From Absidia repens (lineage: Eukaryota > Mucoromycota > Mucoromycetes > Mucorales > Cunninghamellaceae): a stretch of DNA of 64,000 nucleotides. Below the pieces are notes generated by a model, which searched no databases, had not been told where the DNA came from, and saw only the letters and a list, made by a program, of their open reading frames with translations. Position numbers and translations under genes: made by a program. The stretch is taken from positions 2,046,001 to 2,110,000 of the forward strand of contig MCGE01000002.1 in the NCBI GenBank assembly GCA_002105175.1, given 5' to 3'. How positions within the stretch are numbered: the first letter of the stretch is position 1; every line of letters starts with the position of its first letter. This document shows positions 56,403 through 64,000 of the stretch, one piece after another.

Positions 56403-57020
56403 TGTTACGGGTATTTTTGAGTTAATAAATAAAGTGATGTACCAAATATGTATGGTTTGTTAGAGTAATAAGAGCCGTAACGGTATGAAAATAACCTTTT
56501 AGTTAAGTTCAAATTGTATTTTACACCAAATAGATAGTGTATAAGTATTTTCTTGTTCTTGCTTGAACGGATTTGCAGCGAGGACCAAAATTTATTTTTC
56601 CCCTGAATCGGAATTTGAAATGTCCTTTTTTGTTTACTTGACTTGTAGTCTTGAAAAATAGAGAGTACCAAATACCCAAATAAATTATTTGATATAAGTA
56701 GAAAGTACCAGATATGTTATTGGTAATAAGTAGTGAGCACCAGAACCTTTGTAGATAAAGTCCAACTTGAAATAAAAGAAGTTTTAAGAAGAAAACTTGA
56801 TAAAATAAAATAAAGTAGAAGTATTGACCTTAGCTGGTTCAATAAAAATAAAAAAGAGTATAGCTGACTCTGAAAATAAAATAAATAAAGATTTCTATAG
56901 CAAAATAGAAATGACTTGATAACTTGATGTTTTTATAAAAAAACTTTAGACTAAACTTTTTATTGATAACTGAGTAAAGTAAGAGAAAACTAAGGAAAAA
57001 ATAATTTATAACAAAAAGTT
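56403..57020 (-). repeat. 3' LTR (left copy), minimum extent
   Basis: Starts TGTTACGGG (plus strand) and is identical base for base to 63383-64000. The end is not fixed because the right copy runs off the window: identity continues to the last base. A TAACA at 57009-57013 could match the TGTTA start, but seven further bases also agree, so the true LTR is at least 618 bp and could reach the purine-rich string near 57586-57603. Confidence 0.9.
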
Positions 57021-57113
57021 CGCCCTTTTATACTAATTTGAAAAGCGGAGTATGATGATAGTTGATGAAAGCGGAGTATATGAAGTTGACGAAGATGACA
57101 AGCTGTGGCGTAT

Positions 57114-57548
57114 TCATTCACCAGTGGCCCAGTTCATCAGTTCTCGGAGACCAAAAAGGTTAGCTAAATCCAGCTCGTCGTTGACATGCCCCTCCCCTAT
57201 AAGAGCGGCACCGGCGATTTGCTCCCATTCGTCAGAGCTTGCCAATTTTTTCAGCACCGTGTTGATGTGTCGGCGGCTTGTTGTTGGTTCATGTAAAGTT
57301 TCAGTCACCAGACGTTGCTTTTGTTGGCGGTATGCGATGAGCCCCAAGGTATTAGTAGGTCGGTCCAACTTGAGGTGTATATACTCCAAAAGAATTGGCA
57401 CCAAGTTATTTTTCAATGTGGCGGCTCTGGCCCAGTGATGCTGGCGTTCCGAATATGCGTGGCTTTCATAGCAGGCAAAATGTTGCACCGCCATGGCTTC
57501 GAGATATGTGAGCTGTTCTTGTTCAGAGAGGGTCCAGGTGGAGTTCAT
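57114..57548 (-). CDS. Accessory ORF of the retrotransposon, unknown function
   Basis: 144 codons, ATG at 57548, located after the integrase in sense direction, either between integrase and the 3' LTR or within a longer LTR. The protein is soluble and helical, begins MNSTWTLSEQEQLTYLEAMA, with no signal peptide, membrane segment or known domain. Its base composition is clearly richer in G+C than the AT-biased gag, pol and integrase, suggesting a different origin such as a captured host gene. No envelope features. If the LTR is longer than 618 bp, a second copy should lie to the right of the window. Confidence 0.6.
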   Translation of the reverse strand: MNSTWTLSEQEQLTYLEAMAVQHFACYESHAYSERQHHWARAATLKNNLVPILLEYIHLKLDRPTNTLGLIAYRQQKQRLVTETLHEPTTSRRHINTVLKKLASSDEWEQIAGAALIGEGHVNDELDLANLFGLRELMNWATGE

Positions 57549-57621: not shown

Positions 57622-57660
<39 letters not shown>

Positions 57661-57661
57661 A

Positions 57662-59050
57662 CTAGTACAAATGAGATGCCCAGGCTTTCATCATTTGATC
57701 ATTGTAGAATACATCGGGTACGTGATACAATTTTAGCCTATTTCCATGCATGATTTTTGTTTTTGGATTATCTGTGTTATATTCCTTTATAGTGTACGTC
57801 CCTTTTTTATGTATTTGATGTATAATATATAGTCCTTCCCAGTTGTCAGATATTTTTCCTGCCCATGAGTTTGGCTTGATACCTGTATATAACATTACTA
57901 GATCGCCCATCTTAAAGGGTGGCTTCCATTGTCGTTTAATATTCATCACTTTCTTGTCTACTGCTTTCTTTTGACTTGCTTGTGATTTCTTTATCATATC
58001 CGCGGCGTCTTCTCGGATCCTTTCTAATATTTGTATCTCTATGGTGGAACGTTTGACCCATTCTCTTTGGAAAGCTCTTGTGTTTATGTTTTGCGGTTTT
58101 TCCATCATGTTATCATAAGGCGTTCTGGCTTCAAACCCATATGTTAAGAAAAATGGAGAATAGCCGGTTGATTCTTGTTTTATGGTTCTGTACGCAAACA
58201 AAGCTGAAGGCAAATATTCGTCCCAAACAAGCTTTTCCGTTTTATTTATTTTTTTAATGATCGATCCCAAGGTTGAATTTAGTCGTTCGATTAAGCCATT
58301 TGCTTGAGAATTTCCAACGGTGATCGTTTTATGATGTATATTATATTGAAAACAAACTGAATGGATTAATTTACTCACCATAGGTTTTCCATTATCCGTG
58401 ATCAGAATATGCATTGTGCCAAATCGAGATATTATATCGTAAATGAATAAAGCGACTTCTGCTGATGATTGATATTTTAAGGCTTTGGCCTCAACCCATT
58501 TTGTGAGGTAGTCTATAGCTGCGATAATATACCTGTATCCATTTTTTGATGTTGGTACATGTTTCACGTCAATTGCCCATTGATGGAATGGCTTTGATTT
58601 GACAGGTATTGGGTTTAGTAATTCGTTGAGTACCTTAGGTCCAGTTGTTTGGCATCTTTGACATTTTTTGACGTATGCTTGTACTTCCTTTGCCATACTA
58701 GGCCAATAATATTTGTTTGTTATTTTGAAAAGGGTGTTTTGATAGCCCATATGTCCTCCAAGTGGATGCTGGTGGTACATGTACAATGCTTCTTCTGCTT
58801 GGCTTTTATTCAGTACCTGACGTATTGTTTGTTGTTGTAGGTTGTAGAAATATAATTTGCCTTCTTGTATAATGTACTTGTTTGTATTGCGAAGTAGAAA
58901 ATTCTTTTCTTTCTTGGTTGTGTTCAGTGGCATTTTTGCCGTCGTAATGTATTCCTTTATCTTATCTATTAATTGTACTTCCATGTTTGTTATTTGTTTG
59001 TTGATTGTTACTGTTGCTGTGACTTTCGGCGATTCAATTTCAATTTCATT

Positions 59051-59053
<3 letters not shown>
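57662..59053 (-). CDS. Retrotransposon integrase as a separate ORF
   Basis: 463 aa with its own ATG. Inserts the cDNA into the genome. The H2C2 zinc finger is intact (YHQHPLGGHMG ... CQRC). The catalytic core has D162 (WAIDV), D220 (ITDNGK) and E256 (LIERLN), spaced D-X57-D-X35-E, the canonical DDE geometry. The DNA-binding-like NSQANGLIER replaces the commoner HPQTNGQVER. A GPY/F-like module follows (GDLVMLYTGIKPN, EGLYIIHQI..TYTIKE); there is no chromodomain. The ATG is preceded directly by 47 A, and a 36-A tract follows the stop. In Ty3/gypsy elements integrase is normally the C-terminus of the pol polyprotein, so the split is unusual. Confidence 0.93.
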
Positions 59054-59103
<50 letters not shown>

Positions 59104-59232
59104 GAATCATTAGAGATGAATGAGCACCAACTATATTATTTTTTTCTTTTGCACCAATTATATGTATATAGCACCAGATATATGAGAGTTTTTAAGTGCC
59201 CAGTATGTGTTCACCAAATATAATTTGTCTTC
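59054..59232 (-). promoter_or_regulatory. A47 leader and reiterated TGGTGC motif upstream of integrase
   Basis: In sense direction this spacer runs from the pol stop to the integrase ATG. It contains four TTGGTG/CTGGTG strings (plus strand GTTCACCA at 59210, AGCACCAG at 59171, TGCACCAA at 59150, GAGCACCAAC at 59122), then 47 consecutive A up to the ATG. The GAGCACCAA form equals the core of the primer-binding site. The spacer may act as a translation leader or internal promoter; that is inference. Confidence 0.55.
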
Positions 59233-62200
59233 TTAGTAGCCGAGCCTGCTCATAAAATCAACAGCTTGGTGTAGTTTACCAGATTTGTACCTTAGTTCAA
59301 AATCGTAGTCGGTTAGGTATTGTACCCATCTTGCCACTATGCCAGAAATTTTCGGTGATTCAATTATCCATTTCAGAGGTTGATGGTCTGTGATCACAAT
59401 AAACTTTTGCCCTAATAAATAAGGTCTAAATTGTTGTACGGCAAATACTAAAGCCAAACATTCCAACTTGCTTGCGCCATAGTTTTTTTCAGCTGCCCGT
59501 AATCCTCTACTTGAAAATATAATAGGGTGTTCCTTGCCATCTTCATCCTTTTGACATAATATGGCACCTAGTCCCAGTTTGCTGCCATCACAGTGTACTA
59601 TAAATTCTTTTTCAAAATTAGGCCTCTTCAATATTGGCGTAGTTGTGAGCATTGTTTTTAAAGTTTCAAATGCTTTTGTTTCTTCTATTCCCCAGCTTGT
59701 ACGATCGTTCTTGGTTTGATTGTGTAAGGGTCGTGCTATTTTGGCAAAGTCCTTGATAAAACGGCGGTAGTATGACGCTAAGCCAATAAATCCCCTCACT
59801 TGTTTGATTGTAGTGGGTACCGGATAATTTTTCACTTTCTTGATTTTTTCTTCATCGGTCTTGATTCCGTCACTGGTTATGATGTATCCCAGGAATTTTA
59901 ATTCACTTCTAAAGAAGGTACATTTTTCCACATTAAATAAAAGTCCACCTTTCCGAGTGAATCTGAATAGTTGTTCCAGATCGAGTAGGTGTTGATCCGT
60001 ATTTTTTGAATGGACATTTAAATCGTCAATAAATGCGACTAGACATTTATGCAAAAGTTGCTGATAGCATAAATCTATTAATCTTTGGAAGCATGCTGGT
60101 GATCCTTTTAATCCCATTGGTAGTGTGATATATTCGTAAACTCCAAATTTTGTTGTAAAACCAGTTAAAGGTTTGCTTTTTTCATTCAAAGGTACTTGAT
60201 GAAATCCTGATCGTAGATCCAAAGCTGAAAAAATACGTGAATCACCCAATTCATCTATTAAATCATCGATCCGCGGAAGTGGATATGGATCGTCCCTAGT
60301 TTGTTGATTTAATTTTCTATAGTCCACTACCATTCGATATTCACCATTTTTTTTCTTCACCAATATTATAGGAGATGTATAAGGTGTATTAGAAGGCTTG
60401 ATAATTCCCATTTTACATAGTTTATCCAATTCTGCCTTAAGATGCTTTGATTCCTCAGGGCTTATTCTGTAGGGCCTGTGTCTTATAGGGGTGACTTCCT
60501 TTTCGAGAACAATTTCATGCTCAGTTAGATTTGTTAATCCCATCTTGTCATTATTCCAATCGAATATATCTTGATAGTGTTGTATTAGTTTATAGAATTT
60601 TCTTTTCTGTTCTGGGGTTACTTCTCCCATCTGTAGTTTTTGTATAATGTTTGGATCCAATATAATTTCCTTGCCATCATCCTGGTTAAAAATAGATTCA
60701 TATGTTTCAGCTGAATTCCAGGTTTTTAATTCATAGGCACTGTATTCCATTATTTCTTCATTTTGATCATTTAGTAATTGAGTGTGGAATTCCCCAAGTA
60801 CTTGTTCCGGTGGTATTCGCATTTCCTCTTCGGTTTGGTTAATAAAGCTTAGTGAATTTTCTTTATTGCGAATATTTATCATGCTGGCCAAAGGTTGGTA
60901 AACAAAAGAGGCTTCATGACTGTCGGGATTTAAATTTATGCAGCAGGCTGCATAAGGTGGAATATTCAAACCGGCATTCTGTGTAGATACTGTTAGTGTA
61001 TTTTCTATATTATTTTCACTTACTCGTATATTTTGTTCAAGGCTATCCATGATATATAATTCTTCTTCTGATTCTGATTTTTCATCATGTTCCCATCCTT
61101 CTGATTCGGTTTCTTCATCTGTTGAACTTTCTTCTGAATCTTCAGATTCATCTTGTGACCATCCAATATCTTTTTCATCTGCTTGATAATGTACATGATT
61201 CACTTTTATGGGCACAAACTTTTTATCGGTTGATTTGACATAAGTAATAGGTATCTTTTGTCGCTGCCGTTTATATGTGAGCTTTAAATATCCTGTTTTA
61301 AAGTCGATAATAGCTTGCACATGGCTCAACCAGTTATTTCCCAAAATAAAATGCGCAGGACACCTTGGTATCACTTCCATATTTGATGGAATAATAATTT
61401 CATTCCCCACATTAATTGGTACGTCTTGTATCATCCCCAAGGTAGGCTGTTTATTTCCATTTCCAAGTGTGAATACACTATTTGAAGATGTATCGATTTC
61501 CAAATCCAAAGCCTTCATCATACTTCTTGACATACATGATCTGGAGGCACCACAATCGACTAGGCCTTTTATTTTTTTATCACCTATTTGGAATTCAGCA
61601 TAGACTGCGGTTGTGACTACATCGGTTTCTTCCATTGTATTCATTGTGACATCTTTGTCTGTATCTTCAGTGGGAATTCTTTTGTGTCTTTGATCCCTAC
61701 AAGCTTTTACTAATTTTGTTCTTAGTGGTGTAGCTATTTTTAATAATTCACCCAGTTCAATATTTGCTTTTTGTTGAAACACATCTTGCACAATATCATA
61801 TTTAATGTTGGGTGTGGTGTATTTTCGCCGAGTTACTTTTTTTGTGGATTTTTCTATTTCAGGGGTAACTGTTGATTTTGGTGTAACAATTTCCTGAATA
61901 TCAATATCCTCATTTATAGGTCGATTATTTTCAAGGTCTTGACCTATTTGTTCCTTATGATGTTTTATGGCTTGATTTCCCTTTTTATTTTTTGGTGTTG
62001 GTTTTGTGATAACCTTTCTGTTGGAAGCAGTTTTAACTTCAGGTGGTTTTTCTTCCCGATGTGATGCTGCCACATAAAAATCTTGATAATAGTCATCCTC
62101 ATTATCTTCGGTTAATAATATGTTGAAGTCCTGATTGGAACTTTGTTGTGGATTAGATTTATACAATTCATTTGAATTTTTGTTGATGGTTTTTTGATGT

Positions 62201-62241
62201 TGGTGAGCCAATTGACCATCATTCACAATTGGCTGTTGAAG
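59233..62241 (-). CDS. Retrotransposon Pol: protease, reverse transcriptase, RNase H
   Basis: About 1000 aa, expressed as a -1 frameshift extension of Gag: its frame has no ATG until roughly residue 193 and opens upstream into the slippery site. A charged N-terminal linker precedes the protease, whose active site is LVDCGASRS with D224; Cys replaces the usual Ser/Thr after the Asp. An acidic linker follows. RT motifs: RMVVDYRKLNQQT, FSALDLRSGFHQVPL, LPMGLKGSPACFQRL and the catalytic FIDDLN (D734, D735). RNase H: HCDGSKLGLGAIL (D880), KLECLALVFAVQQFRPYL (Glu), ITDHQPL (Asp) and LHQAVDFMSR at the end. The frame stops here, without integrase. Confidence 0.95.
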   Translation of the reverse strand, partial: LQQPIVNDGQLAHQHQKTINKNSNELYKSNPQQSSNQDFNILLTEDNEDDYYQDFYVAASHREEKPPEVKTASNRKVITKPTPKNKKGNQAIKHHKEQIGQDLENNRPINEDIDIQEIVTPKSTVTPEIEKSTKKVTRRKYTTPNIKYDIVQDVFQQKANIELGELLKIATPLRTKLVKACRDQRHKRIPTEDTDKDVTMNTMEETDVVTTAVYAEFQIGDKKIKGLVDCGASRSCMSRSMMKALDLEIDTSSNSVFTLGNGNKQPTLGMIQDVPINVGNEIIIPSNMEVIPRCPAHFILGNNWLSHVQAIIDFKTGYLKLTYKRQRQKIPITYVKSTDKKFVPIKVNHVHYQADEKDIGWSQDESEDSEESSTDEETESEGWEHDEKSESEEELYIMDSLEQNIRVSENNIENTLTVSTQNAGLNIPPYAACCINLNPDSHEASFVYQPLASMINIRNKENSLSFINQTEEEMRIPPEQVLGEFHTQLLNDQNEEIMEYSAYELKTWNSAETYESIFNQDDGKEIILDPNIIQKLQMGEVTPEQKRKFYKLIQHYQDIFDWNNDKMGLTNLTEHEIVLEKEVTPIRHRPYRISPEESKHLKAELDKLCKMGIIKPSNTPYTSPIILVKKKNGEYRMVVDYRKLNQQTRDDPYPLPRIDDLIDELGDSRIFSALDLRSGFHQVPLNEKSKPLTGFTTKFGVYEYITLPMGLKGSPACFQRLIDLCYQQLLHKCLVAFIDDLNVHSKNTDQHLLDLEQLFRFTRKGGLLFNVEKCTFFRSELKFLGYIITSDGIKTDEEKIKKVKNYPVPTTIKQVRGFIGLASYYRRFIKDFAKIARPLHNQTKNDRTSWGIEETKAFETLKTMLTTTPILKRPNFEKEFIVHCDGSKLGLGAILCQKDEDGKEHPIIFSSRGLRAAEKNYGASKLECLALVFAVQQFRPYLLGQKFIVITDHQPLKWIIESPKISGIVARWVQYLTDYDFELRYKSGKLHQAVDFMSRLGY

Positions 62242-62247
62242 TTTTTT
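62206..62247 (-). promoter_or_regulatory. Programmed -1 ribosomal frameshift signal (gag-pol)
   Basis: On the minus strand, in the gag reading frame: slippery heptamer A-AAA-AAC at 62247-62241, a 6-nt spacer TTCAAC, then AGCCAATTG (62234-62226), an 11-nt loop and CAATTGGCT (62214-62206), a perfect 9-bp stem. The gag stop TGA (62225-62223) is in the loop. The pol frame is exactly -1 relative to gag and is open through the site. This matches retroviral gag-pro signals in all parts: heptamer phase, spacer length and downstream stem. Confidence 0.9.
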
Positions 62248-63293
62248 GACAAGTTTTGTTTATGCAAATTGGAGGGTTGCTGAGTTTGATTCTCATTTTG
62301 GCGTTGGTAACCATTATTTCGTGGCCTATATTCTTGTTGCCTATTATTTCCATATTGCTGAGCACCAAATGTGTGGCTTTGATATCTATTATAATTATTT
62401 CTGAATCTGTTTTGTTGATATCCTTGTCCTTGACTCATTTCCTGTCTTATCGTTTGACGGATTAGTTCTTGAATGTCATCAGGTTCAGTTATTTCTTGGG
62501 GTTTGCATGTCTTTTTTAATTTTTTATCTTCAATAAAAATATTGTCGGACTTCTGGCTCATTTTATCAGCCACTAAGGTTGCAAGCTTTTCCAAGAAACC
62601 ATTTTGATTTAAATCGTCTTCATCCACTGAAGTATCCATAACATTTAAGCTAGTGGGTTGTATCATAGGCATGCTATTAGCAAAATTAAAAGATTTAGCC
62701 TTCTTGATGGTACTTTTTGTTCCATTTGTGGTTTGATTTATATTTTCTGATCGATAGGCCTTCCACCAATCTTCTGAATGCTTTTTCCATTCTTCTAAGG
62801 TAGTGGCTCCAAAGGCTAAACAGTGTGCTCTAATAGGAGGAAGCAGTCCTGTTCTGAATCGATTCAATAACACAGTTTGATCAGTACTTTCTGCCAATTT
62901 AGCAGCTGATCTCAATCTTGTATAGTATGACTGGGGTCTTTCATCATTTTCTTGAGCCATATCATTGTATGCAAAGTTATATTGCTGGATTAATTCAGTT
63001 GTGACATATTGATCCTTTAAAGCATCAATGGCACCATGATATGTTAAAGGTCCCTTGAGAGTATCTTGCCAATCTTCCATGAAAGCTTCAGCTTCTCCAT
63101 ATAAAAGAGAATTGAGAATAATAATTTTTCGATCATTGGCAGTAATGTTAGTCAGGGCAAAGTAGTTGTCCAATAATTTTTTAAATTGACGGAAGTCTTC
63201 TCCTTCCTTTGCAGAAAAAGTAATAACACGGGGCTTAAGTCCCTTGAGGTGTTGCTCATGTGTGCCAGCCAACACAGTATGTTCTTGATCCAT
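62223..63293 (-). CDS. Retrotransposon Gag
   Basis: 356-aa structural protein that forms the virus-like particle. The core fits the retrotransposon Gag family: VITFSAKEGEDFRQFKKLLDNYF, LYGEAEAFMEDWQDTL, YVTTELIQQYNFAYNDM, ERPQSYYTRLRSAAKLAE, RFRTGLLPPIRAHCLAF. The C-terminal 90 residues are rich in Asn, Gln, Arg and Tyr and contain no CCHC zinc knuckle; the Arg-rich NRFRNNYNRYQS stretch could bind RNA instead. Cys is nearly absent. The ATG at 63293 is 90 nt after the LTR end. Its last codons contain the frameshift site. Confidence 0.92.
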   Translation of the reverse strand: MDQEHTVLAGTHEQHLKGLKPRVITFSAKEGEDFRQFKKLLDNYFALTNITANDRKIIILNSLLYGEAEAFMEDWQDTLKGPLTYHGAIDALKDQYVTTELIQQYNFAYNDMAQENDERPQSYYTRLRSAAKLAESTDQTVLLNRFRTGLLPPIRAHCLAFGATTLEEWKKHSEDWWKAYRSENINQTTNGTKSTIKKAKSFNFANSMPMIQPTSLNVMDTSVDEDDLNQNGFLEKLATLVADKMSQKSDNIFIEDKKLKKTCKPQEITEPDDIQELIRQTIRQEMSQGQGYQQNRFRNNYNRYQSHTFGAQQYGNNRQQEYRPRNNGYQRQNENQTQQPSNLHKQNLSKNFNSQL

Positions 63294-63365
63294 GTTTGAT
63301 ATGATCTTAATGTTTCTTGTAGTTGTTTATAAAAATTGACTTGATTTTTTTTTTTTGTAGCCCCT

Positions 63366-63378
63366 GTAGTGAGCACCA
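63366..63378 (-). other. Putative primer-binding site
   Basis: In sense, four bases (TATT) after the 5' LTR comes TGGTGCTCACTACAGGGGC, which starts with the TGG complementary to a tRNA CCA end. The matching tRNA would end ..GTAGTGAGCACCA; I could not name it. The same 13 nt recur inside both LTRs (56730-56742 and 63710-63722). Confidence 0.6.
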
Positions 63379-63382
63379 AATA

Positions 63383-64000
63383 TGTTACGGGTATTTTTGA
63401 GTTAATAAATAAAGTGATGTACCAAATATGTATGGTTTGTTAGAGTAATAAGAGCCGTAACGGTATGAAAATAACCTTTTAGTTAAGTTCAAATTGTATT
63501 TTACACCAAATAGATAGTGTATAAGTATTTTCTTGTTCTTGCTTGAACGGATTTGCAGCGAGGACCAAAATTTATTTTTCCCCTGAATCGGAATTTGAAA
63601 TGTCCTTTTTTGTTTACTTGACTTGTAGTCTTGAAAAATAGAGAGTACCAAATACCCAAATAAATTATTTGATATAAGTAGAAAGTACCAGATATGTTAT
63701 TGGTAATAAGTAGTGAGCACCAGAACCTTTGTAGATAAAGTCCAACTTGAAATAAAAGAAGTTTTAAGAAGAAAACTTGATAAAATAAAATAAAGTAGAA
63801 GTATTGACCTTAGCTGGTTCAATAAAAATAAAAAAGAGTATAGCTGACTCTGAAAATAAAATAAATAAAGATTTCTATAGCAAAATAGAAATGACTTGAT
63901 AACTTGATGTTTTTATAAAAAAACTTTAGACTAAACTTTTTATTGATAACTGAGTAAAGTAAGAGAAAACTAAGGAAAAAATAATTTATAACAAAAAGTT
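63383..64000 (-). repeat. 5' LTR (right copy), cut by window edge
   Basis: Identical to 56403-57020 over its whole visible length. Its far end and the target-site duplication lie outside the window. Confidence 0.93.

Follow-up and report, generated by a model that had tools for sequence, protein, structure and literature searches.

Slippage of ribosomes by -1 into the enzyme gene is common in retroviruses and related elements, and at -1 sites of the retroviral and PEG10 types a short spacer is followed by a downstream structure. At the gag-pol site of Rous sarcoma virus the gag stop lies immediately after the heptamer. In the accessible part of PMC5009743, retroviral and PEG10-type sites follow the pattern X_XXY_YYZ (in PEG10 with a pseudoknot), A_AAA_AAC is listed with the heptamers at which mammalian ribosomes shift most readily, and 28 of 51 animal elements have pol at -1. 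For fungi, the available text of PMC3441728 describes Verticillium elements with pol at -1, and that of PMC10085805, whose tree of the Tf1/sushi group includes skippy, MAGGY, Cgret and sushi-ichi, states that such elements outside the fission yeasts produce Gag-Pol predominantly by programmed -1 frameshifting. As far as the accessible text of these sources goes, -1 frameshifting in fungal Ty3/gypsy elements is thus already known, and the element described here adds another case; the initial annotation had implied that such signals are rare among these elements, which is at odds with what PMC10085805 reports for the Tf1/sushi group. A search of literature available in partial text returned no study of -1 frameshifting for this fungal group.

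The window, by which we mean the whole 64,000-nucleotide stretch of Absidia repens DNA that was analysed, contains at its right end a minus-strand LTR retrotransposon of the Ty3/gypsy type (Table 1). It has LTRs, protease, RT and RNase H in that order and the integrase last, though the latter occupies an ORF of its own. Since its two LTRs are identical over 784 nt and GTGA flanks the element on both sides, the insertion is recent. The predicted expression of Gag-Pol by -1 frameshifting likens the element to the Tf1/sushi group as the available text presents it; it differs from that group in its separate integrase ORF and in the lack of a Pfam match to a chromodomain, the mark of chromoviruses, at the integrase C-terminus (E 0.01). 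The gag ORF likewise had no Pfam match, searches of the protease and RT pieces against viral contigs confirmed no relative, and an Rfam search gave a single match, under its gathering score and on the opposite strand. TTGGTG motifs like the candidate primer-binding stretch were also seen by eye in the pol-integrase spacer (~59100-59220, minus strand) and in the LTR.

Table 1. Features of the retrotransposon in the window, listed from its 5' to its 3' end
Feature	Position	Strand	Remarks
5' LTR	63383-64000, with 166 nt more past the window end	minus	
Candidate primer-binding stretch	63361-63378	minus	starts TGGTGCTC; next to 5' LTR; by eye
gag ORF	62223-63293	minus	356 aa
Slippery heptamer A_AAA_AAC	62241-62247	minus	gag phase (TC-A AAA AAC)
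Spacer TTCAAC	62235-62240	minus	6 nt
Stem S1, 5' arm AGCCAATTG	62226-62234	minus	9 nt
Loop TGAATGATGGT	62215-62225	minus	11 nt; begins with gag stop
gag stop TGA	62223-62225	minus	first 3 bases of loop; TAA in families B and C
Proposed S2, 5' strand	62215-62221	minus	in loop; 7-bp complementarity
Stem S1, 3' arm CAATTGGCT	62206-62214	minus	9 nt
Proposed S2, 3' strand	62184-62190	minus	15 nt past S1
pol, -1 frame	59233-62247	minus	aspartic protease, RT, RNase H
Integrase, separate ORF	57662-59053	minus	463 aa
144-aa ORF	57114-57548	minus	3' of integrase and of a second poly(A) tract (~57624-57659); no Pfam match; ends inside 3' LTR
3' LTR	56403-57186	minus	784 nt; identical to 5' LTR

The junction of gag and pol is, with high confidence, a programmed -1 ribosomal frameshift signal of this young element. 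The gag frame ends ...TCA AAA AAC TTC AAC AGC CAA TTG TGA, the gag and pol frames overlap by 12 codons only, and the predicted Gag-Pol junction peptide reads ...SKNLQQPIVNDG.... Every component that had been read here at the outset, namely an in-phase A-AAA-AAC, a 6-nt spacer, a perfect 9-bp stem and an 11-nt loop holding the gag stop, is present; pol does lie at -1, and the first ATG in it comes 201 codons past the slip rather than the roughly 190 initially given. A heptamer, short spacer and downstream structure of this kind resemble the retroviral and PEG10-type sites in the accessible part of PMC5009743, from which the site in the window differs in that its S1 is AT-rich and its S2 pairing (below) is only likely. 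Canonical heptamers occur in phase at 29 of 5258 gag codons (16 families counted), which gives a p of about 0.064 per 12-codon overlap, and for the 45 nt that include the stem the folding energy is -11.0 kcal/mol, where shuffled versions average -2.7 (z -3.7, p 0.002). On their own these window statistics are moderate; the case is made because both heptamer and fold recur across copies and families.

A search of the 47.4-Mb genome for the junction returned 18 matching places, making up subfamilies A (that of the window element), B and C. Six of these are 97-100% identical to the window element, and the other 12 match over only 67-74 nt, located at the cassette and the sequence next to its 3' side; a more sensitive setting adds, for the eight copies of C, an 89-nt match at 69-70% farther downstream. 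The cassette is retained in A-C while the flanks diverge: the heptamer keeps its six As in 17 of the 18 copies (L010 has five), and from the heptamer through the end of S1 only the stop differs (TGA or TAA) in 17 of 18. The position of the gag stop is constant within each family, and Lys350-Asn351 is invariant across six aligned gags. We also counted identical codons among unchanged amino acids, comparing the segment from the slip through S1 with the rest of pol. Codon identity in this segment was 13/15 versus 165/279 between A and B, 13/14 versus 183/315 between A and C, and 14/14 versus 149/273 between B and C; with the S2 region added, the B-C figure became 19/19 (p 1.7e-5).

These matches extend beyond the hairpin. 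At DNA level A and B match as far as 62177, and A and C as far as 62182, just past the 3' strand of a proposed second stem, S2, in which TGATGGT of the loop is complementary to ACCATCA downstream (L1 4 nt, L2 0, L3 15). The 42-nt cassette, initially described as complete, is probably not the whole signal, given the extent of the matches and the possible loop pairing, and we favour, with some reserve, an H-type pseudoknot in family A. S2 would be 7 bp long in both A and B, and 6 bp long in C, all S2-region codons compared are identical (A-B 6/6, A-C 6/6, B-C 5/5), family I has a perfect 7-bp S2 (p 0.018), and loops pair better with their own downstream strands than with swapped ones when no distance limit is set (p 0.0065; 0.0064 by duplex energy). 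Against this stands the possibility, which we rate as appreciable though short of even, that the 9-bp hairpin is the sole stimulator, the S2 match being fortuitous where the sequence is A/C-rich, and protein constraint accounting for the conserved downstream patch. That patch indeed codes for a common peptide, HQK[TS]IN; S2 is down to 4 bp in D (L057), with J and K at 3 bp and several families lacking it; and the pairing statistics are weak, single families giving p values of 0.084-0.096 (A), 0.064 (B) and 0.328 (C). Restricting S2 to within 2 nt of S1 raises the swap p to 0.053 and the Fisher p over 14 families from 0.094 to 0.48, combined values that, the families being related, overstate independence.

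Two more distant families, D and E, have an RT 72% identical to that of A. They share the heptamer of A, and their gag stop lies immediately 3' of it; in this they resemble Rous sarcoma virus, whereas the stop of family A lies five codons farther on, inside the loop. A scan of 27 further loci recovered the D/E junction in recognisable form at 24, with six As in 23 of these and five in the remaining one (the five-A loci are L010 and L044); the other three had no recognisable junction of this type, the stretch fetched for L063 not covering it. In D and E the stem has 6 bp, and a 5-nt bulge separates these from a CGGG/CCCG extension; at one S1 position the T-A pair of A is replaced by C-G in both families. 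Since every S1 pair is invariant within A-C, covariation comes from comparison between families only; relatives, for which conserved heptamers and compensatory stem changes had been suggested as a check, keep much the same geometry and show a compensatory change at that level. In the codon comparison, D-E gave 10/10 from the slip through S1 versus 105/195 in the rest of pol, and A-D showed no excess (5/7 versus 86/142).

Taken over 14 representatives, the heptamer is A_AAA_AAC, G_GGA_AAA, T_TTA_AAA, G_GGT_TTT or A_AAA_AAA in gag phase, the last four forms being those of the distant members, in which pol is again at -1. The stem begins 5-6 nt past the heptamer in all 14 (counting, for D and E, the lower 4-bp stem across the bulge), with both heptamer and stem letters varying between families. 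Heptamer phase, frames, stem and their conservation across copies and families can all be read directly from the DNA. In a fixed window starting 4 nt past the heptamer, each of the 14 folded better than its dinucleotide shuffles (p ≤0.03 each; Fisher p 2e-17, which, again, overstates the independence of related families), and own stem arms paired at 115 of 126 positions versus 69 ± 6 with swapped partners, a test that is partly circular as the arms were picked for pairing. The combined fold and S2 tests excluded B, C and additional D copies, since these repeat A or D. For H and M, where automatic hairpin choice gave another fold, the register common to their relatives was used, and for M the second of two in-phase heptamer candidates was taken. 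The 20 loci L069-L088 included 13 with a -1 overlap and an in-phase heptamer, L083 among them; L081 had -1 frames and overlap without a canonical heptamer, L084, L085 and L088 had gag and pol as a single ORF in the stretch fetched, and L073, L074 and L076 had no usable gag-pol overlap. L049, which resembles a gag-pol fusion produced by a deletion, was not counted, and no long ORF was seen in L055.

Outside this genome we found 32 gag relatives, known here as proteins and, together with the integrase relatives, coming from sources that include Rhizopus, Absidia, Chlamydoabsidia, Thamnidium, Phascolomyces and, once, Rhizophagus. The exact end -KN is found in 17 of the 32, and two more have KN inside their last eight residues. 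In all 19, KN is preceded by S, Q, P or A, residues that fit A_AAA_AAC because each has a codon ending in A; as 47% of tail residues have no such codon, the p for this is about 5e-6. Such ends are consistent with a stop right after AAA AAC, the arrangement seen in D and E. The other 13 gags lack a KN end, among them P0125, labelled partial, P0141, which ends in KK, and P0135, taken up below.

These comparisons bear on whether gag and pol might in truth be one ORF, their frames set apart by an indel or an assembly error. The genome offers an apparent case: judged by the ends of gag and pol, L083 and L084 are closely related, and where L084 is a single gag-pol ORF, L083 is split into -1 frames at an A run that lies in phase, so that an indel can mimic a frameshift site; five As, moreover, occur in L010 and L044. 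L083 was set aside. Elsewhere, six As persist in nearly all A-C copies and D/E junctions, the gag stop falls at one site per family and more than half of the external gags finish at KN. Given the constancy of A run and stop site across copies, an indel artefact was rejected for all but L083, and for the window element we consider it extremely improbable. Joining of gag to pol by a spliced transcript, or an internal start of pol, seems hardly more credible. The gene model of P0135 (Thamnidium) does, by eye, continue from gag into a pol-frame-like peptide, which may reflect an annotated intron or an in-frame fusion; an intron, however, needs no canonical in-phase heptamer with a stem at the overlap, yet the 14 representatives have them, and an internal start would have to contend with the late first ATG of pol. 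A -1 cassette joining gag and pol, as first proposed, is strongly supported by the comparison of copies and families.

Under programmed frameshifting, most ribosomes would terminate at the gag stop of the loop and release Gag. A smaller share, stalled by the S1 stem, probably within an H-type pseudoknot, while AAA and AAC occupy the P and A sites, would slip in tandem one base back onto AAA AAA and then read pol, giving Gag-PR-RT-RNase H as a minor product. We infer the slippage itself, its efficiency and the S2 pairing. The position of the stop suggests that termination may compete with shifting. With at least 14 related gag-pol junctions in one genome, in which heptamer and stem letters have changed and the geometry is much the same, the set is a natural comparison for studying the trade-offs between slip site, stop position and structure at -1 frameshift signals.

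Downstream of RNase H the element departs from the usual layout, integrase being as a rule the last part of pol in Ty3/gypsy elements (PMC3248453, as far as its accessible text states); a search of literature available in part found no case of a separate integrase ORF. In the window, pol stops after RNase H and a run of 48 As follows (59053-59100, minus strand), the last of which is the first base of the integrase ATG. At nine of nine other loci from families A-E (L089-L097), pol similarly ends just past RNase H, ahead of an A-rich spacer, so that this stop is common to all five families examined; the A runs in the spacers comprise 10-88 As. Integrase-like frames were seen by eye 3' of the spacer in seven of the nine, that of L090 being broken, and none was seen in the stretch fetched for L095. 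Their frame relative to pol varies among loci; in the C loci L092 and L093 a single in-frame TAA separates the two, so that stop readthrough is possible there. In L091, a family A copy, the integrase is seemingly lost and the 144-aa ORF follows the first poly(A) tract, perhaps through recombination between the two tracts. Free-standing integrase proteins of ~448 aa, many from Rhizopus, are common among the 120 of 177 matches listed, in a search that admits only proteins of limited length.

Tentatively, and with more doubt than conviction, we suggest that in this Mucorales-type lineage the frameshift yields Gag-PR-RT-RNase H only and that the integrase is translated alone from an ORF preceded by a poly(A) leader; that this leader serves internal initiation is a guess. 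Should separate translation hold, the dosages of Gag, Pol and integrase would each be set separately. The separate integrase ORF is more unusual than the frameshift site, and may matter more.
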